DNA from: Chitinophagaceae bacterium
GTDB taxonomy: Bacteria > Bacteroidota > Bacteroidia > Chitinophagales > Chitinophagaceae
Reading direction: 5' to 3'
Assembly: GCA_947476485.1 (NCBI GenBank)
Contig: CANJQU010000016.1
Location: 1 to 51,283 of the forward strand
DNA length: 51,283 nt
Made by a program: the position numbers and the translations under genes. Below the pieces are notes generated by a model. The model did not search any database. It was not told the DNA's origin and saw only the letters and a list, made by a program, of their open reading frames with translations. Positions within the stretch are counted from its first letter, which is position 1, and each line of letters begins with the position of its first letter. Shown piece by piece: positions 17,412-29,172 of the stretch.

Positions 17412-18653
17412 TTATTTTTTTCGTGGGAGGATGCTCATTTTCACATATCTGGCCAGGGCCAGCGTGTTCGACTTAAACACGCCAAGGGTGGGCATGGAGA
17501 TGTTTTGGGCCGTTGCGATACGGGTTTTGAGGGTGGCAATTGCTTTGAAATATTTGTTGAGGCAGACCTCCATGCTGAACTCGGATTCGGCGAGCCTGCG
17601 GGCTGCGAGCTGCCGTGCGCGCGATGGCACAGCCGCAACTTTTTTTATTTTGCTTACCGCATCTTCAATATTGCCGACCGTGTAGACAGACACACATTCT
17701 GCAGCGGCAGGGACATGTTCAAAATCCTCGATGCCACTGACCCTTGTGCCGGTGAAGCCACAGCCGGATGCCAGCGCTTCCATCATGACCAGGGGCATAC
17801 CTTCGGAGTTAGAAGTCAACAGCAATATGTCTGTCCTGTTTAAAAGCTGCTGAACGGCCTGGCCATTCAGCCAGCCGTGGAAGGATACGAATTCCGCTAC
17901 ATGAGCTTCTGTGAAACGCTGGGTGAAATCTTTTGCCGAGCCTTCGTCATTGCCCGCAATATCGAGGTGAAAAGCGATACCCTGTCGATGCAACTCTCCG
18001 CAAATGGAGACGAGGTCGGCTGCTCGCTTCTCATAATCTGTGAGCCTTCCAACAAATGTCATCCGGATCAAGTCACCGGTTTTCGAAGCTGGTGCAAAAT
18101 CAGGAAGGTTGATGCCGCAGGGAGTGGTATACAGCTTGTTTGGATCCAGGTAGTAGAATTTCCTGATCGCTGTTTCTTTTATCCTGTTGGATACGCAGGC
18201 GCAAATACTCATCTGCTGGTGGTATTTCTTTGCGTAGTTGTAATAGACATCCTGGTCGCCATGGAGGACGCCGACCATAGGGTATTTATCAGCTATACTG
18301 CCTGCGGCGGCCCAGACCGCGGAATCATCTGATACGATGACCGGCACGCCCTCCGGTACTTTTTCCCGGATGAGATGGGCATATACAGCAGCGCGGTAGG
18401 CTTCTGTGCCAAATTCAAAGGTGAAATTCACCTGGCGGCTTATTACTTTGACACCGGAATTATTTTTTGTAAGCAGATCGTACATGCGCTCCCTGCCGCC
18501 TGCAGAAATAAAATCCTTTGCCGGCTCAACTGTGATAAAAAATACTTCCAGGCCCATGCCGGCAGCGCTGATCGCTGCGTCAGCCATCCAACGGGTAACG
18601 CCACCTCTGTGGTAAGGGTGACATAAAAACGCTATTTTCTTTTTCTCGATCAT
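17412..18653 (-). CDS. GT4-type glycosyltransferase (GT-B fold)
   Basis: A 413-residue protein. The N-terminal half starts KKIAFLCHPYHRGGVTRWM with the Gly-Gly acceptor-side loop. The C-terminal half has the donor-binding MTFVGRLTDYEKRAADL and the family motif SEGMPLVMMEALASGC, where E-x7-E binds the sugar nucleotide. Such enzymes build capsule, exopolysaccharide or O-antigen glycans. No other glycan genes are adjacent, so the substrate is unknown. It is transcribed away from the giant surface-protein gene, and its upstream region carries the multi-stem element at 18761-18862. Confidence 0.88.
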   Translation of the reverse strand: MIEKKKIAFLCHPYHRGGVTRWMADAAISAAGMGLEVFFITVEPAKDFISAGGRERMYDLLTKNNSGVKVISRQVNFTFEFGTEAYRAAVYAHLIREKVPEGVPVIVSDDSAVWAAAGSIADKYPMVGVLHGDQDVYYNYAKKYHQQMSICACVSNRIKETAIRKFYYLDPNKLYTTPCGINLPDFAPASKTGDLIRMTFVGRLTDYEKRAADLVSICGELHRQGIAFHLDIAGNDEGSAKDFTQRFTEAHVAEFVSFHGWLNGQAVQQLLNRTDILLLTSNSEGMPLVMMEALASGCGFTGTRVSGIEDFEHVPAAAECVSVYTVGNIEDAVSKIKKVAAVPSRARQLAARRLAESEFSMEVCLNKYFKAIATLKTRIATAQNISMPTLGVFKSNTLALARYVKMSILPRKK

Positions 18654-18760
18654 TGTGTGTGGACCTCTTTCAAAATGGCAATTTATCCAGGTTCTAAATT
18701 CAGCGTCATGGTTCGGATATCCGCGTTGATGCTGTAGATTATAATATTCAATTTAATAAA

Positions 18761-18862
18761 GCCGCGAATGAGCACTGTGCGCGGCGCGAGCCAACCACCC
18801 CAGAGCGGCGCCAGTGCCGGTCATCTCCTCCTAAAAACAGGAGGGTAGGTGGTGCGTGCTCA
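18761..18862. ncRNA. Candidate structured RNA or structured DNA element, unassigned
   Basis: In an AT-rich region this GC-rich stretch can form nested helices. P1 is TGAGCAC/GTGCTCA (18769-18775 with 18856-18862). P2 is ACCACC/GGTGGT (18794-18799 with 18848-18853). P3 is 18827-18832 with 18839-18844. P4 is CGGC/GCCG (18806-18809 with 18816-18819). P5 is GGC/GCC with a GCGA loop (18783-18785 with 18790-18792). A sixth stem GCCGCG/CGCGGC (18761-18766 with 18780-18785) excludes P5 and has P1's 5' arm in its loop. The strand is unknown; GNRA-type capping favours plus, while position 107 bases ahead of the glycosyltransferase start favours minus. It matches no RNA family I recognise. Confidence 0.4.
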
Positions 18863-19083
18863 CGTTTTCTCTTTTACAGTCCGTGTGATAGCAAATTGTA
18901 TGCTATTCAAGAATAATCCAGCTGTCATAATTACCTTAAAAGTCGCAGTTGCTTTTTATCGCGCTTAAAATATAAACTAAGAAGAAAACTATTTATGGAA
19001 AGTAGCTGAAATTGCCCAAAATTGAAAGAAAAAATGCTTTTGCACACATTGCTGTTGATAATCAATGAGTTGATAAAAAATCA

Positions 19084-19132
19084 TTGCTCATTTCTTGCTC
19101 ACTTTTGCCCGAAAGTTGCTCATTTCTTGCTC
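19084..19132. promoter_or_regulatory. Five helically phased TTGCYC hexamers (candidate operator)
   Basis: TTGCTC begins at 19084, 19095, 19116 and 19127, and TTGCCC at 19105. The spacings are 11, 10, 11 and 11 bases, so all five face one side of the helix. The outer pairs form a 17-base perfect direct repeat (19084-19100 and 19116-19132). It lies about 350 bases upstream of the giant surface-protein start. A protein-binding array is inferred; chance or a relic tandem duplication is possible. Confidence 0.4.
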
Positions 19133-19429
19133 TGCCGTTTTAACCGGAGGCGCTATGCATCGTCCGAAATCACTTTACGCCCTTGGTTAAATAATCCTGA
19201 TTTCGGTTACTAAGATCGCAAGGGGAACAAACGTAGTAAACCATTAATTCCAGCACAAAGGTAGCGGGTTAATTAACACCGTCCAACACGTTTTATTTAT
19301 GGGGGTATTGTGGGTAAATACGCAAAACGCTTCGATATCACCAAAGATTAATAACGAACCGTTGTGGTTGAGCGTTTAGATGTGCGCATTTAGTACGGTA
19401 AGCAAGATTATGTTATTGTTAAGCTAAAG

Positions 19430-19460
19430 TTGGATAATTTGGTTTTAATTTTTATATTTA
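19430..19460 (+). promoter_or_regulatory. Probable promoter of the giant T9SS gene
   Basis: TTG (19430-19432) and TATATTTA (19453-19460, one mismatch to TAnnTTTG) are spaced 20 bases apart, ending 20 bases before the ATG at 19481. The upstream TTG start of the longer reading is part of this -33 element. Confidence 0.45.
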
Positions 19461-19480
19461 GAATTGAAATCCCCGAATTT

Positions 19481-22400
19481 ATGAAGCACTTTTCCTTATT
19501 GTCTTCCCGTATTGCAACAATTGCAAGGGCGGCCCTATTTGTTTTAGCGATATGCATCGGCGTACAGGCGCGTGCGCAGATCACCGTGACTGCTACGGCG
19601 GGATTAACAGGCCCCACCGTGTATGCAACGCTGAATGCCGCAATCAGCGCGGTGAATGCCGGTACCCACCAGGGCAGTATATTGTTTACCGTGACCGCTA
19701 ACACTACAGAGACTTTGTTGTCTACCCTGGTGCAAACCGGCTCTGGTGCTGCCAACTATTCGTCTCTTACCATAAAGCCTGATGTGGCTACCAATCCTGT
19801 GATCACCGGTAACATAGCAACAGGAATACTGTTTATTCTGGGCAGCAATGTAACAATAGACGGATCTAACACCACAGGCGGCTCTACGCAGGACCTGACG
19901 ATAAGGAATACAAGCACGGCTGCCAACAGTTATGTTGTAAGAATCGGCAGCCCAAGTACAACCCTTGGTGCAGTTAATAACCAAATAACCAATAGTTTCA
20001 TACAAAGCTCGAATCCCCTTAATGGAGGAGCCTGTATCCTGGTTGGCAGCGGAGCAGGAACATTTGCTAACGCAGAAGCACCCAACGACAAAACCGTGAT
20101 ACTAAATAACACCATCGTGGGAGCACAGTATGCCATATTTTACACAGGTTGTGTCAGCAATCCTGATTTTGAAGTAGGGATAACCGGTAATACTATTTCG
20201 GCCACAGTATCGGGTATCTGGTTCACATTTTGTAAATCAAGCAATATAAATGCGAATGTTATAAGTGGTGTACCGGTAAATGCGGGTTTTGCGATAGATG
20301 GCATATTGGTGAATGGCACCATGGTAAATGTGAATGTGTATAATAACAAGATCAGCTCTTTGCGCAATACAAGCGTGAGTGCGGCTTCCGCCGCGTATGG
20401 ATTGTATTTATCGGCATTTAACGGACCGATCAACGTCTATAACAATTTCGTCTTTGATATTGTAAGTAATGGCAGCGCTACTGCAACAGCTAATGGAGAA
20501 GGGATATATTTTGAACAAGGCAGTGGCTATTCAGTGTATCATAACACTGTTAACATGACCAACCCCCAGGCCGTTGCAGCCGGTGCGCCGTCTGCAGTGA
20601 TGGTTGGTGCGGGAGTAACCGCTCCCGGTGCGATAAACTTACAGAACAATATATTTGCAAACAACCAGGCCAGTGGCGCAACTCAACGTTATTCTATATA
20701 CAGCGCTGCGCCCGCCACAGTATTTGCATCTATTGATTATAATGACTACTACACCACCGGCCCGAACCTGGGATTTTTGGGCGGTAACCGTGCAACACTT
20801 GCGGCCGTTCAGACGGCTTTTGGAAGTAATACACACTCACTGAATGTGTTGCCCCCTTTTACAGCAACCACAGACCCGCATATCAGCGTAATAGGTTGTG
20901 CCGGAACTCCCCTGGAGTCAGGCGGCGCCAGCGTGGGTATTGCAACTGATATAGACGGACAAGTGAGGCCCGGGCCTGTGTCATCGTTGTGCGGTGGCGG
21001 CACAGCGCCGGATATAGGCGCAGATGAATTTGATGCGGGTGTGAACGACCTTACCCCACCGGCGATCACCTATACGGCCTTGCCGAACATATGTACACCT
21101 GCTGATGTGACGCTTGCCGGAGTAAACATAACTGACGCTACGGGCGTACCTACAACCGGGATATTGATGCCGCGCATCTACTTCAGCAAAAATGCAGGCC
21201 CCTGGTTTTCGGCAGCAGGTACGCTTACTGCAGGCACCACGATAAGCGGTACGTGGAGCTTTACGATACCGATGGCTACCATGGGCGGCCTTGCCGTGAC
21301 AGACGTAGTTTCGTATTATGTGATCGCACAGGATAATTTCGGCAACATCATTGCTAATCCAGCAACGGGGCTGGTTGCAACGGATGTAAATACGGTGACA
21401 ACGCCGCCTACCACCCCCAATACCTATACAATTGGTGTAGCGATGAGCGGCGTTTATAATGTGGGTGTAGCGGGCGCTTACACCACGCTTACTGCAGCGG
21501 TAAATGCCTACAACACAGCCTGCCTGCTGGGGCCGGTGACTTTCCTGCTAACAGATGCAACTTATCCCAGCGAGACGTTCCCAATTACTGTGCGGTATAA
21601 CAGCTATGCCAGCGCTGTAAATACGCTTACGATAAAGCCGGGCGGCACAACAACTATATCAGGCGCTATGCCAGCCAGTGGATTATTTTACTTGTATGGC
21701 GCGAGGTATGTTACTATAGATGGGTCGAACTCAGGGACGGCAAGCAGGGATCTTACATGGTCGAATACGGCCGCTGCTGCCAATAGCTATGTGATCAGAT
21801 ACGGCAGTCCATCGCCTTCTGTCGGGGCAAGAAACAACACCGTTAAGAACTGTATAGTTACCAACGGCAGCGCTACTGCAAGCACATACGGCATCACCAG
21901 CGGAAGTGGTACAACAATAGGAGCCGTAGCAGAATGCCCCATCGTCAACAACACTATTCAAAACAATAATATTAGCGGATCGATATATGCCGTGTTTATT
22001 AACGGTTTTAGCTCAACTGCTGATAGCGGCTGGAGTGTAAATAACAATACCCTATCGGCAGGGGCAAGGGCGATCGGGCTATTTTATATGGCCAGTTCGA
22101 ATGTGAACAATAACATTATCAGTACATCATCTTCTGCTTTTACGCAGGAGGTGGGAATAATTGTTAATGGAGCTCACTATGGTCTAAATATTTACAACAA
22201 TAAGATCTCCGGAATAACAAATACCGGAGCATTTGGAGCATACGGGATATGGCTTGTTGCAAACAGCTCATCATCCAATATCAATGTCTTCAACAATTTT
22301 ATTTCTAACGTTTCAACTGGTGGCTCCGCTACCATTGCAAGCAACGGACACGGTATTTATGCGTCTTTCGGGGTGGGCTACAATGTAGTAGAAAATTCAG

Positions 22401-25400
22401 TAAATATGAACACCAATCAAACCAGCGGTGTTTCATCTGCAATGTGCATCAACGGAGTTACACTGCCCGGTGCTCTGAATATCATTGATAATATTTTTGC
22501 GAATAACCAGACCGCAGGTGCGCCGGTTGGCACGAGGTATAGCATCTATAGTGCGAATCCCAACACGGTATTTGGAACGATCAATTACAATGATTACTAC
22601 ACAACCGGTACTAATTTAGGTTTTCTTACGGTAGCGCGTACAACACTTGCAAATATCCAGGCTGGCTTCGGCGGCAACCTGAACTCCATCAATCTATCGC
22701 CTACATTTGTAGCGCCCACAGACCTGCACCTGCAGGTAGTACTGGCTAACGCCGGGCTGAATGCGGGAACACCGATAACGGGCCTTGTGACGGATATAGA
22801 CGGAGATGCGCGGGTTAGCCCGACAATAGGTGCGGACGAGCTTATTCTATGTCCGCTGCCGATTACCGGTACGCCAACCGTGTGTGTAACCACCACTACA
22901 GCGTTAACAGACGCAACTACCGGCGGAGTATGGAGCTCGGTACCTGGAACCGGCAGCGCGTTGGTGAGCGGCACAGGAGTAGTAACCGGGGTCAGCGCTG
23001 GAACTGCAACTATTTCGTATACCCTTGGCGGCTGTGGCGTGGCTATGGTGGTTACGATCAACCCGTCACCTGTGCCGGGGCTTATTACCGGATCATTAAC
23101 TGTGTGCCCGACTTTAACTACAGCATTAAGCAATGCTACGGGCGACCCCGGTGGTGTGTGGAGCTCAACAACAGGAAATGCGAGCGTAGGGCCGACCGGT
23201 ATTGTAACCGGTATCACGGCAGGAACGTCAACCATATCTTATACAGTAACCAATAGCTGCGGCTCGTTTGCGGCAACAGTTGTGGTAACTGTAAACCCCT
23301 TGCCTAATGCCGGGGCGATAACGGGAACATTTACTGTGTGCCCAACCGCTGCAACAATATTAAGTGATGCTACCGGTGATCCCGGCGGCGTATGGAGCTC
23401 TGTATCGCCCGGCAATGCAACCGTTGGCGCGACAGGTACGGTGACCGGTGTTGCTGCGGGTACATCGACGATATCTTATACAGTAACCAACAGTTGCGGC
23501 ACGGCGGCCGCTACGGCGGTGGTAACGGTGAACCCGTTGCCTAATGCTGGTGCGATAACCGGCGGGCTGGTGGTTTGCCCGACGGCAACAATAGCTTTAG
23601 CAGATGCAACCGGTGATCCGGGAGGTGTGTGGAGCAGCGTTACTCCAGGTATCGCCACAATAAGCGCATCGGGTGTGGTGACAGGTGTTGCGACAGGCAC
23701 AACTACTATCTCCTATACGGTGACGAATGTTTGCGGTGTGGCCGCAGCTACCGCGGTGGTAACTGTAAGCGCTACTCCGAATGCCGGCATCATAAGCGGC
23801 GGGCTTGTAGTATGCCCAACCACAACAACAACTCTTACAGATGGAGCAGGAGGCGGTGTATGGAGCAGTGTGAGCCCGGGGATAGCAACCGTGAGCGTGT
23901 CTGGTGTAGTAACAGGAGTTGCTGCAGGCACGTCTACCATATCTTATACCGTGACCAACAGTTGCGGAACGGCTGCTGCAACTGTTGTAGTAACCGTGAA
24001 TCCTGCACCGGCGGCAGGCACTATTACCGGCGGCCTGGTGGTATGCCCATCGACTACCACAAACTTAACCGATGCAGCCACAGGCGGCGTATGGAGCAGT
24101 GTGAGCCCGGGGATAGCTACAGTGAGCGGTACGGGCGTGGTGACAGGTGTGGCCGCAGGTACTTCTATAATTTCATATGCAGTAACAAATAGCTGTGGCA
24201 CTGCCGCAGCAACTGTGGTGGTTACGGTGAACCCGTTACCTAATGCGGGCAGCATAACCGGCAGCCTTTTGGTATGCCCGGCATCAACCAGCGCCCTTAC
24301 GGACCTTACCGGCTCGGCCGGCGGTGTGTGGAGCTCTGTAACTCCAGGTGTTGCTACTGTGAGTGCGACAGGTGTGGTTACGGGTGTTGCCAATGGTACG
24401 TCTACAATTTCTTATACAGTTACTAACAGTTGCGGCACTGCGGCCGCTACTGCGGTTGTTACGGTAAATCCATCGCCTAACCCTGGTACTATAACAGGTA
24501 CGCTTGTGGTATGCCCGCTTGCCACCACACAGTTGAGCGATGCTGTAGGCGGCGGTGTATGGAGCAGTGTTTCACCGGGCAATGCAACGATCAGCGCAAC
24601 CGGCCTTGTGTCCGGTGTGGCGGCGGGTACAACGATCATATCATATACGGTGACGAATAGCTGCGGCACTGCTGCGGCCACGGTGACGGTGAATGTTAAT
24701 CCATTACCTAATGCCGGCACCATATCCGGCGGGCTTGTCGTTTGCCCGACAACGACTACCACACTCACCGATGCGGTGATCGGTGGAATATGGAGCAGTG
24801 TGAGCCCGGGAGTAGCTACGATAAGCGGCGGCGGCATAGTGACCGGTGTTACCGGCGGCACGTCAACCATATCTTATACTGTAGTGAACAGTTGCGGCAC
24901 TGCCGCGGCGACAGTGGTAGTTACAGTTGATCCATCGCCTAATGCAGGCAGTATCACAGGTACGCTGATGGTTTGCCCTACGGCTACCACAGCATTGACC
25001 AATGCCGCGGGGGGTGGGGTATGGAGTGCAGTGACCCCTGCTGTTGCCACAGTGGGCGCTACCGGTATCGTTACCGGTGTTGCGCCCGGAACTACTACAA
25101 TATCATATACGGTAACCAACAGTTGCGGCACTGCTGCAGCTACTGCGGTAGTAACCGTTAACATACCTCCTAATGCAGGCAGTATCACCGGCACCTTAGG
25201 CATATGCCCTTCCGGCACTACTTCGCTGACTGATGCAGCAGCAGGTGGTGTGTGGAGCTCTGTTTCGCCAGGTGTTGCCACAGTCGGTACTTCAGGCGTG
25301 GTGACCGGCGTGACTGCAGGCACTTCAACGATCTCTTATACCGTGACCAACGGCTGCGGCACAGTGGCTGCATCGGTAGTGGTAACGGTGAACGGATTGC

Positions 25401-27907
25401 CAACAGCAGGGACGATAGCCGGCACCTTTACCGTATGCCCGACAACCTCGACCACGCTTATTAATGGAACGCCCGGCGGTGTATGGACCAGTTCCAGCCC
25501 GTGGATAGCAACTGTGGATGTGGTAGGGAATGTGGTGGGTGTAGCAGCAGGTACCACAACTATATCGTATGCGGTTACGAACCTGTGCGGCGCGGCATAT
25601 GCAACGGCTGTGGTTACGGTTAACCCGGCGCCATTTGCCGGAGTGATCACCGGCGCCATGATCGTGTGTGCGGGAGACTCAACATTATTGAGTGATGCAG
25701 TTCCCGGTGGCATGTGGAGTTCCCTGTCACCGGCTGTTGCGTCCATAAGCGCTACCGGAATGGTAACCGGTAATACCCTTGGCACAGCGACTATAGTGTA
25801 TGCAGTAACCAATATGTGCGGCACTGCGTCTGCAACGAGGACGATCAGTGTAAACGCGGCCCCGAGCGCAGGAACGATACTTGGAGCAAGGGTGGTTTGC
25901 CCGGCTACCTCTATCACCCTCAGCGACCCATCCAGCGGTGGAGGCGGCACATGGACATCGGGTTCTCCGACCATTGCCACTGTGGGAAGCACAACCGGAG
26001 TTGTGACAGGTGTGATAACCGGTACAGCACTGATCACCTATTCAGTAACCAATAGCTGTGCGACGGCGAGGACCAGCATTGTTGTGACCGTACATCCGTT
26101 CCCAACGGCTATCATGGGCCTGGGCAGTGTGTGCCAGGAGAATAATATAATCCTGAGTGATTCGGTAACAGACGGCGCATGGAGCAGCAGTAATACAGGT
26201 GTTGCCACGATAGCCCCGGCGGTGGGGCCATTCCCCCAGGGTATCGTATCGGGCTTAACGGTTGGCACGACAGAGATCTCCTATACTGTTGCGCCGGGAT
26301 GTTTTGTAACTAAGACCATTACCGTAAACCCGATCGGAGCGATCACACTGCCATCTGCCTTGTGCGTGGGCGGCGCTGTGACTGCGGTAGATCTGCCGGG
26401 CGGCGGCACATGGAGCAGCAGTACCCCCAGTGTTATAACTATAGGCAGCAGTTCGGGTGTTGCTATGCCGATCTCGTCAGGCGCAGCTATCATAACTTAT
26501 GTTCTGGCCCCGGGATGTTTCGTGAGCAAATCGGTGACAGTGAATATCCTTCCCCCCAATTATTATATGACTGGCGGCGGTAGTTATTGTTTTGGTATGC
26601 CGGGTGTTCCGATAGGCCTTGGCGGGTCGGACACAGGCGTTACCTACACTTTGTATTTAGGCTCGACCCCCAATGCCACACTTGCCGGAACCGGCGCTGC
26701 CCTGGACTTTGGCACTTATTCTGTTACCGGGGTTTACTCTGTGATCGCTACAAGCACCTTAACCGGCTGTTTCAGGGTAATGAGCGGCGGAGCAACAGTT
26801 ACGGTAACGACACCTGCAACACCAACTGTAGGTATTGCGGCAGATCCCGGCACGCTGGTGTGCGTAGGAACGATGACTAACTTTACTGCGATACCTACAT
26901 CAGGCGGCACATCACCAATATACTACTGGTATGTGAATGGAGTAAGTGTTGGAACTGGTAGTACCTACGGTTATATTCCGTCGAACGGTGACGTTGTATC
27001 AGTGAAACTGATGAGTAATGCGGGTTGTATATCACCGGATAGTGCGATGAACTCCCTGACCATGACAACTACATTTGGACTTATGCCATCTGTGAGCCTG
27101 ATGGCGAGCCCCGGGGATTCTGTATGTCCCGGCACAATAGTGACCATAACGCCATTGCCTGTGAACAGCGGCTCTTCACCAATATTCACGTGGGTGAAGA
27201 ATGGCGTCTATGATGCTACCGGACCAAACTATATGTTTGCCCCTGTGGCGGGAGACAATATCCTGTGCTGGATGCATAGCAGCCTTAGCTGCGCCATCTC
27301 TGATTCAGTGCATAGTGACAACAATATTGTCATGAATGTACCGCCGATCCATGTGCCTGTGGTAAACATAGTGGCTTATCCCGGCAACAGGGTGGAGTAT
27401 GGGCAAACAGTTACGTTGGTTGCGGGTGTTACCTTCGCCGGCAACAGTCTTTCGTACCAGTGGTCAATAAACGGCGCACCGGTGCCCGGCGCGGTGTCGG
27501 ATACCTTCATCAGCAACACATTCGGCAATCTTGATTCTGTGACCTGCAGGGTTACCGGGTACAGCACATGCGGATCTGCGGAGCGTGAAGACTATATCAT
27601 TATCATTGATACGGTATCGGTTGGTGTGCATAATGTTGGCGTGAGAACGGCAGATATCAGGCTGATACCGAATCCTAATAAGGGCACGTTCACACTGAAG
27701 GGAACTATGGGCGCTGCGGGTGATGACCTGGCAGTGATCGTAACGGACATGCTGGGACAGGTGATCTATTCGAAAACGATAAACGTGCGCAACGGCAATT
27801 TAGATGAGGAGATACAACTCAGCAATACGTTAGCTAACGGTATGTACCTGCTGAATGCGAAGAGCGATACAGAAAGCAAGGTGTTCCACTTTGTGATAGA
27901 GAAATAA
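19481..27907 (+). CDS. Giant (2808-residue) T9SS-secreted surface protein with beta-helix regions and 16 Ig-like repeats
   Basis: The signal peptide is MKHFSLLSSRIATIARAALF and onward, cut near QARAQ. Residues about 30-515 and 660-1120 are two parallel beta-helix regions rich in Asn/Gly turns (ANNQASGATQRYSIYSA, NNIFANNQTAGAP), each closing with an IGADE string. Residues about 1130-2360 are 16 tandem Ig-like repeats of about 77 residues (22.87-26.56 kb), typified by VCPTTTTTL, GGVWSSVSPG, ATVSATGVVTGVAAGTSTISYTV and NSCGTAAAT. Residues about 2361-2720 hold further Ig/PKD-like domains. The T9SS type A domain starts at IRLIPNPNKGTFTLKG. It is probably an adhesin or matrix protein; the ligand is unknown. 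Confidence 0.92.
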   Translation: MKHFSLLSSRIATIARAALFVLAICIGVQARAQITVTATAGLTGPTVYATLNAAISAVNAGTHQGSILFTVTANTTETLLSTLVQTGSGAANYSSLTIKPDVATNPVITGNIATGILFILGSNVTIDGSNTTGGSTQDLTIRNTSTAANSYVVRIGSPSTTLGAVNNQITNSFIQSSNPLNGGACILVGSGAGTFANAEAPNDKTVILNNTIVGAQYAIFYTGCVSNPDFEVGITGNTISATVSGIWFTFCKSSNINANVISGVPVNAGFAIDGILVNGTMVNVNVYNNKISSLRNTSVSAASAAYGLYLSAFNGPINVYNNFVFDIVSNGSATATANGEGIYFEQGSGYSVYHNTVNMTNPQAVAAGAPSAVMVGAGVTAPGAINLQNNIFANNQASGATQRYSIYSAAPATVFASIDYNDYYTTGPNLGFLGGNRATLAAVQTAFGSNTHSLNVLPPFTATTDPHISVIGCAGTPLESGGASVGIATDIDGQVRPGPVSSLCGGGTAPDIGADEFDAGVNDLTPPAITYTALPNICTPADVTLAGVNITDATGVPTTGILMPRIYFSKNAGPWFSAAGTLTAGTTISGTWSFTIPMATMGGLAVTDVVSYYVIAQDNFGNIIANPATGLVATDVNTVTTPPTTPNTYTIGVAMSGVYNVGVAGAYTTLTAAVNAYNTACLLGPVTFLLTDATYPSETFPITVRYNSYASAVNTLTIKPGGTTTISGAMPASGLFYLYGARYVTIDGSNSGTASRDLTWSNTAAAANSYVIRYGSPSPSVGARNNTVKNCIVTNGSATASTYGITSGSGTTIGAVAECPIVNNTIQNNNISGSIYAVFINGFSSTADSGWSVNNNTLSAGARAIGLFYMASSNVNNNIISTSSSAFTQEVGIIVNGAHYGLNIYNNKISGITNTGAFGAYGIWLVANSSSSNINVFNNFISNVSTGGSATIASNGHGIYASFGVGYNVVENSVNMNTNQTSGVSSAMCINGVTLPGALNIIDNIFANNQTAGAPVGTRYSIYSANPNTVFGTINYNDYYTTGTNLGFLTVARTTLANIQAGFGGNLNSINLSPTFVAPTDLHLQVVLANAGLNAGTPITGLVTDIDGDARVSPTIGADELILCPLPITGTPTVCVTTTTALTDATTGGVWSSVPGTGSALVSGTGVVTGVSAGTATISYTLGGCGVAMVVTINPSPVPGLITGSLTVCPTLTTALSNATGDPGGVWSSTTGNASVGPTGIVTGITAGTSTISYTVTNSCGSFAATVVVTVNPLPNAGAITGTFTVCPTAATILSDATGDPGGVWSSVSPGNATVGATGTVTGVAAGTSTISYTVTNSCGTAAATAVVTVNPLPNAGAITGGLVVCPTATIALADATGDPGGVWSSVTPGIATISASGVVTGVATGTTTISYTVTNVCGVAAATAVVTVSATPNAGIISGGLVVCPTTTTTLTDGAGGGVWSSVSPGIATVSVSGVVTGVAAGTSTISYTVTNSCGTAAATVVVTVNPAPAAGTITGGLVVCPSTTTNLTDAATGGVWSSVSPGIATVSGTGVVTGVAAGTSIISYAVTNSCGTAAATVVVTVNPLPNAGSITGSLLVCPASTSALTDLTGSAGGVWSSVTPGVATVSATGVVTGVANGTSTISYTVTNSCGTAAATAVVTVNPSPNPGTITGTLVVCPLATTQLSDAVGGGVWSSVSPGNATISATGLVSGVAAGTTIISYTVTNSCGTAAATVTVNVNPLPNAGTISGGLVVCPTTTTTLTDAVIGGIWSSVSPGVATISGGGIVTGVTGGTSTISYTVVNSCGTAAATVVVTVDPSPNAGSITGTLMVCPTATTALTNAAGGGVWSAVTPAVATVGATGIVTGVAPGTTTISYTVTNSCGTAAATAVVTVNIPPNAGSITGTLGICPSGTTSLTDAAAGGVWSSVSPGVATVGTSGVVTGVTAGTSTISYTVTNGCGTVAASVVVTVNGLPTAGTIAGTFTVCPTTSTTLINGTPGGVWTSSSPWIATVDVVGNVVGVAAGTTTISYAVTNLCGAAYATAVVTVNPAPFAGVITGAMIVCAGDSTLLSDAVPGGMWSSLSPAVASISATGMVTGNTLGTATIVYAVTNMCGTASATRTISVNAAPSAGTILGARVVCPATSITLSDPSSGGGGTWTSGSPTIATVGSTTGVVTGVITGTALITYSVTNSCATARTSIVVTVHPFPTAIMGLGSVCQENNIILSDSVTDGAWSSSNTGVATIAPAVGPFPQGIVSGLTVGTTEISYTVAPGCFVTKTITVNPIGAITLPSALCVGGAVTAVDLPGGGTWSSSTPSVITIGSSSGVAMPISSGAAIITYVLAPGCFVSKSVTVNILPPNYYMTGGGSYCFGMPGVPIGLGGSDTGVTYTLYLGSTPNATLAGTGAALDFGTYSVTGVYSVIATSTLTGCFRVMSGGATVTVTTPATPTVGIAADPGTLVCVGTMTNFTAIPTSGGTSPIYYWYVNGVSVGTGSTYGYIPSNGDVVSVKLMSNAGCISPDSAMNSLTMTTTFGLMPSVSLMASPGDSVCPGTIVTITPLPVNSGSSPIFTWVKNGVYDATGPNYMFAPVAGDNILCWMHSSLSCAISDSVHSDNNIVMNVPPIHVPVVNIVAYPGNRVEYGQTVTLVAGVTFAGNSLSYQWSINGAPVPGAVSDTFISNTFGNLDSVTCRVTGYSTCGSAEREDYIIIIDTVSVGVHNVGVRTADIRLIPNPNKGTFTLKGTMGAAGDDLAVIVTDMLGQVIYSKTINVRNGNLDEEIQLSNTLANGMYLLNAKSDTESKVFHFVIEK
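22870..26565 (+). repeat. Sixteen tandem ~230-bp coding repeats (Ig-like modules)
   Basis: Each unit encodes about 77 residues, with one Cys near the start (VCP) and one near the end (SCG). Units 3 to 11 are the most alike in protein sequence, sharing strings such as TGVAAGTSTISYTVTNSCG. They differ at many synonymous codons, so the array is not a very recent expansion. The last units (13-16) are the most divergent, which suggests growth from within the array. Confidence 0.85.
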
Positions 27908-27995: not shown

Positions 27996-28394
27996 TTAAG
28001 ATTTTACCAGCGGGAGTACCAATTGCTGAAAAAGCTCATCGAGTTTGGTCTCCGGGTCTTCGCAGAGGCCGGTGTGCACTTTTGACATCTGGAGCGTGGT
28101 GCTCCTTGTGGCGGAAAGCCAGCGGAAGCGTTCGGGTGCTGTGAGCTTGCCAATTTCGCCGGCACTGCTGTCTCCGCTGCATATGTTCTGAAAGGCTTCG
28201 AGGTATTTCTGAGTGAGCTTTATATCAATATCGGGGTAAAAAGCGCGGAGGCGTTTTTTATCGATGTGAAACCTCATCTGTAAAAATTTTTTTCCGGCCG
28301 CATAAAGCAATACGCCCACGTTAAGAAACTCTTCGCGTTCTACCCTTGGTACCAGGCGGACCACAACATACTCATATGGCTTCTTTTCTTGCAT
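27996..28394 (-). CDS. DUF3037 domain protein (partner of a HipA-like kinase)
   Basis: A 132-residue protein with the DUF3037 start YEYVVVRLVPRVEREEFLNVGVLLYA, then FHIDKKRLRAFYPDIDI and a C-terminal RFRWLSATRSTTLQMSKVHTGLCEDPETKLDELF. DUF3037 genes are often found directly beside HipA-like kinase genes, and here it overlaps the kinase gene by 23 bases as second gene of the pair. The function of DUF3037 is not established. A toxin-antitoxin-like or phosphorylation-target role is only an inference from the pairing. Confidence 0.86.
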   Translation of the reverse strand: MQEKKPYEYVVVRLVPRVEREEFLNVGVLLYAAGKKFLQMRFHIDKKRLRAFYPDIDIKLTQKYLEAFQNICSGDSSAGEIGKLTAPERFRWLSATRSTTLQMSKVHTGLCEDPETKLDELFQQLVLPLVKS

Positions 28395-29172
28395 GCTGCG
28401 CTTCTTTTACAAAAATATGTGAATTTGCTATCCTCGTTAATAAAAACTGCTCGTAGGCATTCCTGCATTCTTCAGCCGAACGGAAGTGCGGCTCCGGAAT
28501 TATCCAGTCACCGGGAATCCTGGAGACTATATCATGGATCACTTTTGGGGTAAGGAGCTTTTTACACTTACGGTCGGCATTATGGAGTTGGGCTGCTTTT
28601 GGCAACAGCACATGGTCCTTGATACGCGGGAACGGCTGCACGGCCTGTTCTGCCGCGGGGCGGGCCCAGTTATAATGAAAATAAAGGCACGCGCCGTGGT
28701 CTATGAGCCAGAGCTCTTTATTCCAGATGAGCATGTTGGTATTGCGTACGGTGCGGTCTACGTTAGTGACCAGGCTATCGAGCCACACGATAACTGAGGC
28801 GAGGTATGCATTGACCTTTGTGATGCCCGGGTCGAAGGTATTGCTGCAGGAAAGATAGGCCAGGCCTATATTGAGACCTGTACTTGCCTTGAGCTGGCTC
28901 TGTATCAATTCGTCGCTTTCGGTGCGGCCAAATGCTTCACTGAGCTGCACGAACACCAGTTCGGGTATCCTTAAGCCAAGTGCGCGCGCTATTTCCCCTC
29001 CTATGAGCTCTGCTATCAATACCTTGGGCCCTTGCGCCGCGCCGCGGAATTTGAGCACATATTTACGTCCATCATCGCCCTCGATAAGGCCCGGCACGGA
29101 GCCGCCCTCACGCAGCGGCAGCACATAGCGATCTACGCTAACCGTTCTCATCTGCGGCACCAGGTAAGTCAT
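28372..29172 (-). CDS. HipA-like kinase domain protein
   Basis: A 266-residue protein with kinase features of the HipA superfamily. The ATP lysine is probably K41 in KYVLKF, a catalytic D139-x4-N144 lies in NVDRTVRNTNMLIW, and the metal-binding aspartate is D158 in LIDHGACLYFHYN. It lacks the N-terminal HipA region and is about 170 residues shorter than E. coli HipA, which fits the HipA_2-type branch. No HipB-like HTH gene is next to it; instead the DUF3037 gene overlaps its 3' end. The catalytic residues look intact. Its substrate is unknown. Confidence 0.82.
   Translation of the reverse strand: MTYLVPQMRTVSVDRYVLPLREGGSVPGLIEGDDGRKYVLKFRGAAQGPKVLIAELIGGEIARALGLRIPELVFVQLSEAFGRTESDELIQSQLKASTGLNIGLAYLSCSNTFDPGITKVNAYLASVIVWLDSLVTNVDRTVRNTNMLIWNKELWLIDHGACLYFHYNWARPAAEQAVQPFPRIKDHVLLPKAAQLHNADRKCKKLLTPKVIHDIVSRIPGDWIIPEPHFRSAEECRNAYEQFLLTRIANSHIFVKEAQHARKEAI

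Follow-up and report, generated by a model that had tools for sequence, protein, structure and literature searches.

A GC-rich block occupies part of the intergenic gap between a glycosyltransferase ORF and a giant surface-protein ORF in the window (the whole stretch of Chitinophagaceae DNA that was analysed, 51,283 nucleotides), and the question it raises is whether it is a structured RNA or a structured piece of DNA. A first-pass annotation had drawn several helices in it, among them an outer pair (P1 and P2) and an alternative helix that might act as a switch, and had offered three options: a cis-regulatory RNA, an sRNA, or a structured DNA element such as a transposable or REP-type palindrome. 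What had been read directly from the letters held. The GC fraction is 0.59 in 18750-18849 versus 0.30 in 18900-18999; 107 bases separate the block from the start of the minus-strand glycosyltransferase ORF, and it also lies upstream of the plus-strand surface-protein ORF (Pfam Big_2, E=2e-37, plus Por_Secre_tail in 19490-27907). The arms of P1 (18769-18775 with 18856-18862), of P2 (18794-18799 with 18848-18853) and of the GC-only alternative helix (18761-18766 with 18780-18785) are indeed complementary. The absence of a recognisable Rfam-type motif was borne out as well: no family reached its gathering score anywhere in the window (best sub-threshold match, E=4.3), and a tRNA/tmRNA scan gave none. 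Folding of both strands against dinucleotide shuffles found the block only moderately unusual (z=-1.80 for the plus strand and z=-2.41 for the minus strand), with programs that do not score triads.

A dispersed repeat in one genus

Searching the source genome (G000; 4.58 Mb in 215 contigs) with the element gave 49 nucleotide matches at E≤10, and a motif rule recovered 29 copies in 30 of its loci. We aligned 27 of these 29 (alignment A1), omitting the copies at L018 and L027, in which other hairpins replace one arm of hairpin 2. The covariance model built from A1, R1, also has in its structure three outer pairs, as well as three that join the ACCACC arm to the 3' side; we rely on none of these below. 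The match of R1 to the window copy is on the plus strand; it is the minus strand for which a triplex fold is proposed. The parts of the window copy and its surroundings are:

18762..18870, minus strand: whole repeat copy (R1 match, 89.9 bits, E=5.6e-25)
18839..18846, minus strand: one arm of hairpin 2 and putative pyrimidine strand of the duplex; reads ACCCTCCT, family consensus CCCCTCCT
18833..18838, minus strand: loop 1 of hairpin 2, GTTTTT
18825..18832, minus strand: putative purine strand of the duplex; reads AGGAGGAG, consensus AGGAGGGG
18803..18822, minus strand: hairpin 1, hypervariable, in loop 2 (short class, 20 nt); double changes at 8/9 pairs in 27 copies
18794..18801, minus strand: putative third strand; reads GGGGTGGT (plus strand ACCACCCC), antiparallel to 18825-18832
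18769..18775, plus strand: 5' arm of P1; variable flank, not a conserved helix
18856..18862, plus strand: 3' arm of P1; pairing of P1 and P2 together not above shuffles in 27 copies
17412..18653, minus strand: neighbouring glycosyltransferase ORF (Pfam Glyco_trans_1_4, E=1.9e-15); context only
19430..27907, plus strand: neighbouring giant surface-protein ORF, from the ORF list; context only

In the source genome R1 found 49 matches at E≤1, among which as listed the window copy ranks 28th, and 44 at E≤1e-3. Across 60 genomes (the source included) 31 were matched, 30 of them among the 35 that belong to the genus and, weakly, one among the 25 others; within the genus, G002, G009, G011, G018 and G032 gave no R1 match, and some genomes had just one or two weak ones. 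A strict pattern run over GTDB contigs hit 54 stretches, all from MAGs titled Bacteroidetes, Chitinophagaceae, Chitinophagales, Taibaiella or Flavipsychrobacter, and at 10 of these 54 loci copies form inverted pairs 41-74 bases apart. Plasmid and phage collections gave no element match by blastn, and the exact pattern was absent from IMG/VR viral contigs.

The surroundings of the copies vary. We assembled a wider set of 128 distinct copies from the source genome and its relatives; since they were chosen for an exact ACCACCCC and a near-exact hairpin 2, conservation of these tracts must not be read from the set. With 18 locus-edge copies and 10 that fall within a simple ORF call set aside, 100 could be scored for context: 34 lay between tandem genes in sense, 22 between tandem genes in antisense, 34 between convergent and 10 between divergent genes. 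The excess is at gene ends, and the sense lean in the tandem class (34 vs 22) is weak. The gene 5' of the minus-type strand was in sense in 68 of the 100, mostly from convergent pairs. Clustering of 798 ORFs near copies returned varied neighbours and no tie to one gene; the clusters include NHL-repeat proteins (13 loci; a large family) and a helix-turn-helix (HTH) family (9 loci), and several further clusters were discarded as merely reading through the element.

The window copy itself sits between divergent genes, the rare class, and we found nothing pointing to a role for it in either of its two neighbouring genes. The gap between flanking homologies is 782 bases here vs 89 in G005, and 810 here vs 170 in G020; in both of these other species of the genus the orthologous gap lacks the element, and G005 has one flanking the same gene on its opposite side, where no copy is present in the window. 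The same intergenic gap of the window holds other dispersed sequence. A second repeat at 19029-19133, with two 17-nt direct repeats TTGCTCATTTCTTGCTC, has matches in G000:C7 (83%), G000:C138 (80%), G005:C156, G005:C574 and others, and 19273-19315, perhaps a third repeat family, has a 93% match in G013:C5 and a longer, weaker one in G013:C6. Further along, at 28372-29172, the minus strand has a HipA-like kinase ORF (Pfam HipA_2).

The repeat family and its dispersal are observed directly: the element is non-coding repetitive DNA, interspersed through genomes and, among those searched, almost exclusive to a single genus. Its copies are scattered and not tied to one gene, which supports the last of the three original options, structured DNA such as a transposable palindrome or a REP-type element.

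Pairing in the two inner hairpins

We then asked which of the drawn helices other copies keep. P1 and P2 do not survive the comparison as conserved structure: standard pairs occupied 62.0% of their cells in the 27 source-genome copies vs 62.8% after shuffling, and the second P2 pair is present in one copy of 27, that of the window. The alternative helix, scored on five pairs since the sixth falls outside the alignment, reached 42.2% vs 39.8% shuffled, and other copies do not preserve the two-state switch. In contrast, hairpins 1 and 2 (A1 columns 48-56/72-80 and 84-92/99-106) had standard pairs in 96.4% of cells vs 79.1% shuffled, and slid-register controls gave 47-59%. The covariation check that had been proposed thus came out in two ways, no better than shuffles for P1 and P2 and positive for hairpins 1 and 2 (0.448 vs 0.142, a value reached by 0/500 shuffles). 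As judged from this alignment, the overall fold that had been drawn is peculiar to the window copy, and its two inner hairpins are real.

The two hairpins differ in how they are kept. In hairpin 2, whose consensus is 8 bp with a 6-nt loop, 107 of the 128 copies were perfect in a selection that permitted one change per arm. Hairpin 1 is hypervariable, with 106 distinct sequences with stems in the 128-copy set, yet it stays paired; in A1, eight of its nine pairs show double changes, and in the 128 distinct copies 935 of 1000 outer cells were Watson-Crick, a figure that leans high because the spacer was trimmed to best pairing and three weak-stem copies were omitted. Its covariation is a direct observation. 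Mismatches in hairpin 1 hint at a lean towards wobble on the minus strand: read on the plus strand, A.C outnumbers G.T by 26 to 4 over distinct hairpins and by 18 to 4 over distinct contexts, a lean that falls to 6 vs 3 when hairpins are clustered.

Hairpin 1 covariation and the one-strand lean of its mismatches would also fit a structured RNA, be it a cis-regulatory leader, a 3' UTR element or an sRNA, as would the 68 of 100 5'-side genes in sense with the minus-type strand and the mostly sense orientation of copies beside HTH genes. However, a locus-tied cis-regulatory RNA or sRNA, as first proposed, is not supported, in view of the varied neighbours, of the two other species whose orthologous gaps lack the element and of the failure of P1 and P2 to covary. 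More generally, there is no Rfam match in the window and no tie to one gene, copies are in excess at gene ends, the tandem bias (34 vs 22) is weak, and the window copy falls in the rare divergent class. An RNA would, moreover, leave unexplained the triad match described below, and we regard it as highly improbable.

A purine-motif triad pattern on the minus strand

Hairpin 2 is accompanied by a third tract. In A1, seven columns of ACCACCCC are identical in 27/27 copies and the eighth in 26/27, which equals the conservation of hairpin 2 itself; pairing with the AGGTG after hairpin 2 is possible for a few bases of the tract and not for the rest. On the minus strand, the consensus runs CCCCTCCT-GTTTTT-AGGAGGGG-AT or AC-[hairpin 1]-one base-GGGGTGGT, and GGGGTGGT, placed antiparallel to AGGAGGGG, puts a G opposite each G and a T opposite each A, at 8/8 positions. 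By tract order and base identity, the minus strand has the arrangement and the triads of a purine-motif intrastrand triplex, and such a triplex would account for the invariance of ACCACCCC, which is mostly unpaired in the two-hairpin fold. The first-pass annotation had missed this pattern, along with the repeat nature of the element and its hypervariable hairpin.

The third-strand test gave 8/8 triads in 94 of 119 candidates. When the collected loci were scanned for an exact 8-bp duplex with 8/8 triads and a required third-strand T, the antiparallel rule produced 208 hits (121 places after merging registers), compared with 0 for a parallel rule, 25 for a Watson-Crick-copy rule and 14 with the third strand placed upstream of the duplex; since most of these loci had been chosen for containing the element, the 208 hits measure one family and not a frequency. 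Some copies depart from the pattern. Those at L018, L027 and L220 are missing the purine tract and so cannot form the triplex, and loop 1 carries inserts at L173, L180, L226 and L129. At L173 and L180 the inserts lie in the hairpin-2 loop of single copies, as if another short palindrome had landed there.

Judged by its bases, the window copy is a worn member of the repeat. Across the 27 aligned copies the commonest base is held by 25-27 copies in the pyrimidine-strand columns and by 26-27 in the purine-strand columns, and the window copy deviates at 18846 and at 18826, respectively. Its duplex (18825-18832/18839-18846) keeps 6/8 Watson-Crick pairs, its third strand makes 7/8 matches with 6 contiguous full triads, and its loop 2 is 23 nt long; its GTTTTT loop 1 is common to 106 of the 128 distinct copies. 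The invariance of the pyrimidine, purine and third-strand tracts in A1 is, like the covariation of hairpin 1, seen directly.

The triads can also be compared between families. In family B, AGGAGGGG goes with the third strand GGGGTGGT. Family C, known from 1/35 genomes, combines GAAGAGGG(G) with (G)GGGTGAT at three places of G025 (L230, L288, L091) with differing hairpins. Family A combines GGAGAGGG with GGGTGAGG; its short-loop form occurs in 24/35 genus genomes (reversed-pattern control, 0), and its long-loop pattern at 5 places in 4/248 genomes of the order. Among the latter, L279, from another genus, has a 9-bp loop hairpin and full family-A triads; L278, also from another genus, has a palindromic loop and a shorter match, with 6 triads by visual count; at L280 and L282 the loop holds no clean hairpin, and at L281 two motifs form an inverted pair. 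Counting from the loop-2 end, the triad at position 7 is G.G-C in family B and A.A-T in families A and C, and the one at position 8 is G.G-C in family A and T.A-T in families B and C. In the families as aligned, the purine strand and the third strand thus change together, and this concerted change is itself an observation. The short-loop form of family A (CTCTCC..GGAGAG..GGGGTGAGG) follows the same triad logic and in places lies near family-B copies (L177, L075), but it has no hairpin pin in loop 2.

Family C also bears on a different four-stranded reading, in which the G-tracts of the minus strand would form a G-quadruplex. The consensus there does have GG, GGGG, GGGG and GG runs; however, family C retains the triads although it has just two runs of 3-4 Gs, its other Gs standing singly, which argues against a quadruplex, and the conserved C-tract would be unneeded. 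We consider this explanation extremely unlikely.

Intrastrand triplex repeats are already known in bacteria. According to the available text of Holder et al. 2015 (PMC4666352), the intrastrand triplex motif of E. coli (TM, TM-ECO), which occurs in >260 bacterial genomes and in 23 intergenic copies in MG1655, consists of a pyrimidine tract, a short loop, a purine tract, a 3-nt loop 2 (TTA or CCG) and a third strand. The same text gives the purine-motif rule as an antiparallel third strand with G.G-C and T/A.A-T triads, and the class II TM limits as tracts of 6-15 nt, with loops of 1-6 nt in the published finder. It reports the TM-ECO triplex in vitro by CD and NMR; in vivo, DMS footprinting gave no protection at a chromosomal site, and only a polymerase stop was seen in the assay (PMC4666352).

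Our element resembles TM-ECO, as described there, in its class II one-strand order, in its G/T-type third strand with T opposite A, and in being multicopy and intergenic. Its consensus duplex has tracts within 6-15 nt and a loop 1 within 1-6 nt, its third strand is antiparallel with G.G-C and T/A.A-T triads, and it is intergenic, dispersed and multicopy, with 44 matches in the source genome. It differs in loop 2, which is 22-39 nt in 100 of 101 family-B-register hits and holds a hypervariable hairpin, versus 3 nt in TM-ECO; this is beyond the published 1-6 nt limit, so the finder, as its loop range is given, should not list the element. Further differences are the tract, here AGGAGGGG, the host, a Chitinophagaceae-related genus, and the presence of some copies beside an HTH gene family. 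Among the open-licence PMC papers listed, titles and abstract openings contained no account of this repeat or of a hairpin-loop triplex repeat.

The window copy is, then, probably a decayed copy of an interspersed non-coding DNA repeat whose minus strand is able to fold as an intramolecular purine-motif triplex, and on sequence grounds the best reading of the family is a hairpin-pinned variant of the known bacterial intrastrand-triplex repeats that would act as DNA. In the proposed fold, the C-rich tract would pair with the G-rich tract to make hairpin 2; the chain would then pass through hairpin 1, a pin in loop 2 that is nearly free in sequence and constrained to pair; and GGGGTGGT would lie antiparallel as a third strand in the groove of the G-rich tract, forming G.G-C and T.A-T triads. 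By analogy with the E. coli motif, the triplex might form once the strand becomes single-stranded during replication, transcription or supercoiling, and might stall polymerases and promote local rearrangement or copying.

Candidate routes of spread and protein partners

How such a repeat spreads bears on whether a triplex is needed at all. The element could be an atypical REP/BIME moved by a Y1 (TnpA-REP/RAYT) transposase, like those beside Bacteroidetes subclass 2.6 genes, in which case the invariant tracts would be protein-binding sequence and the triplex would be unneeded. Atypical structures beside subclass 2.6 genes, with dispersed copies elsewhere in the genome, are described in the available part of PMC6006769. 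In the genus, 33/35 genomes have a PF01797 match; inverted pairs, as at 10 of the 54 strict-pattern loci, are in keeping with such movement; and a subclass-2.6-like gene at L132 (the same place as L181) has a copy on each side. However, this is the only directly flanked case in 51 scanned Y1-match loci, themselves a part of the listed PF01797 matches (L123 and L137 being one place), and at L125 and L129 the copies lie >1 kilobase from the Y1 match. Other hairpin repeats also adjoin the L132 gene, and these resemble the ones at L124, where a similar gene stands without the element. The subclass-2.6-like gene of the source genome lies between the arms of a different inverted repeat, 70 nt long with two hairpins, which did not match any of five element copies tried by blastn. 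By alignment inspection, neither hairpin has a GT[AG]G tag at its 5' foot, the flanks being ACCACCCC and AGGTG. We judge movement by a Y1 transposase unlikely.

Given the different flanking repeat, we rejected the element as the cognate repeat of the source genome's own RAYT. That gene lies at L136 2844-3380 (G000:C26), and its flanking repeat is 84% complementary. Among the subclass-2.6-like genes tested at L124-L143, 11/15 have an inverted flanking pair of at least 50 nt, with differing hairpin sequences.

Relative to the REP/BIME/REPIN sequences associated with RAYT (TnpA-REP), as far as the available parts of PMC6006769 and PMC3116915 describe them, the element is similarly short, palindromic, mostly intergenic, dispersed and found in inverted pairs, but it has neither the GT[AG]G foot nor a consistent Y1 transposase neighbour in the scanned loci, and it adds an invariant extra tract and a hypervariable hairpin. 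GTAG-/CGTC-tagged palindromic repeats, in the available text of PMC3733652, are likewise dispersed hairpin DNA that is commoner at gene ends; they are, however, 20-40 bp single tagged palindromes, whereas the element, at ~75-110 nt, combines two hairpins with a third tract.

The element might otherwise be a MITE, that is, a deleted transposon with terminal inverted repeats (the arms of P1), whose transposase is encoded elsewhere and whose possible partner is the multicopy HTH gene. Copies are short and dispersed, and some have resembling ends, AAATGAG...CTCATTT, by inspection. The HTH family (phrog_4151, Terminase_5-like), to which the ORF clustering pointed, has matches in 34/35 genus genomes and is itself multicopy, with up to 15 matches per genome. 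It was examined at 70 loci holding 65 different HTH ORFs; these loci comprised each genome's best match together with chosen sets from G000, G007, G010, G013, G029 and G034. Thirteen of 18 distinct elements lay ≤300 bases from an HTH ORF, 12 of these 13 in sense, and the source genome has four element-HTH pairs vs 0.06 expected (0.2 under a cruder model assuming 4000 gaps); because it was the proximity of copies, chiefly in G000 and G003, that drew attention to the family, those genomes are no independent test. At three G003 loci the element follows the HTH stop codon by 71-74 bases.

Against a MITE, pairing of the P1 arms is seen in 48.5-50% of cells, and P1 and P2 together do no better than shuffles, so that conserved terminal repeats are not evident in the family. 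No target-site duplication or clean empty site emerged at the orthologous gaps, which are too diverged for exact placing, and in G010 a comparison by eye of L246 with L238 and L248 suggested replacement, not clean insertion. The scanned HTH members match only the HTH parts of families, with no catalytic domain, and for about four-fifths of the 65 HTH ORFs no copy lies ≤300 bases away. A MITE is in our estimation very unlikely; it is possible that the element and the HTH gene are both mobile and share gaps.

The HTH genes have features of their own. In G010 (L238-L248), eleven copies have ~84-91% DNA similarity to L238 over the gene, and in 9/10 comparisons this similarity ends within ~20 bases of the stop codon. 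Nine of 19 distinct members examined end in Ala-Ala, which we take to resemble a ClpXP-type degron. From the shape of a motif, the G003 proteins may have a GIY-YIG-like C-terminus; Pfam gave no GIY-YIG hit in the one G003 HTH protein scanned.

A more speculative extension, which we think quite unlikely, is that the HTH (small-terminase-like) family binds the triplex repeats and helps to spread them in a system without a known transposase, hairpin 1 serving as a fast-changing identity tag and the triplex as the recognised end of a new kind of element.

Under the reading that we favour, a hairpin-pinned triplex repeat, the family would be of use beyond this genus. Intrastrand triplex repeats are common in bacteria, and a preserved three-stranded fold is hard to tell from fixed sequence; the concerted change of purine and third strands, together with a loop hairpin of free sequence, would provide a natural three-way covariation test. 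The family would also offer >100 natural loop variants for biophysics and, in the HTH family, a candidate protein partner.
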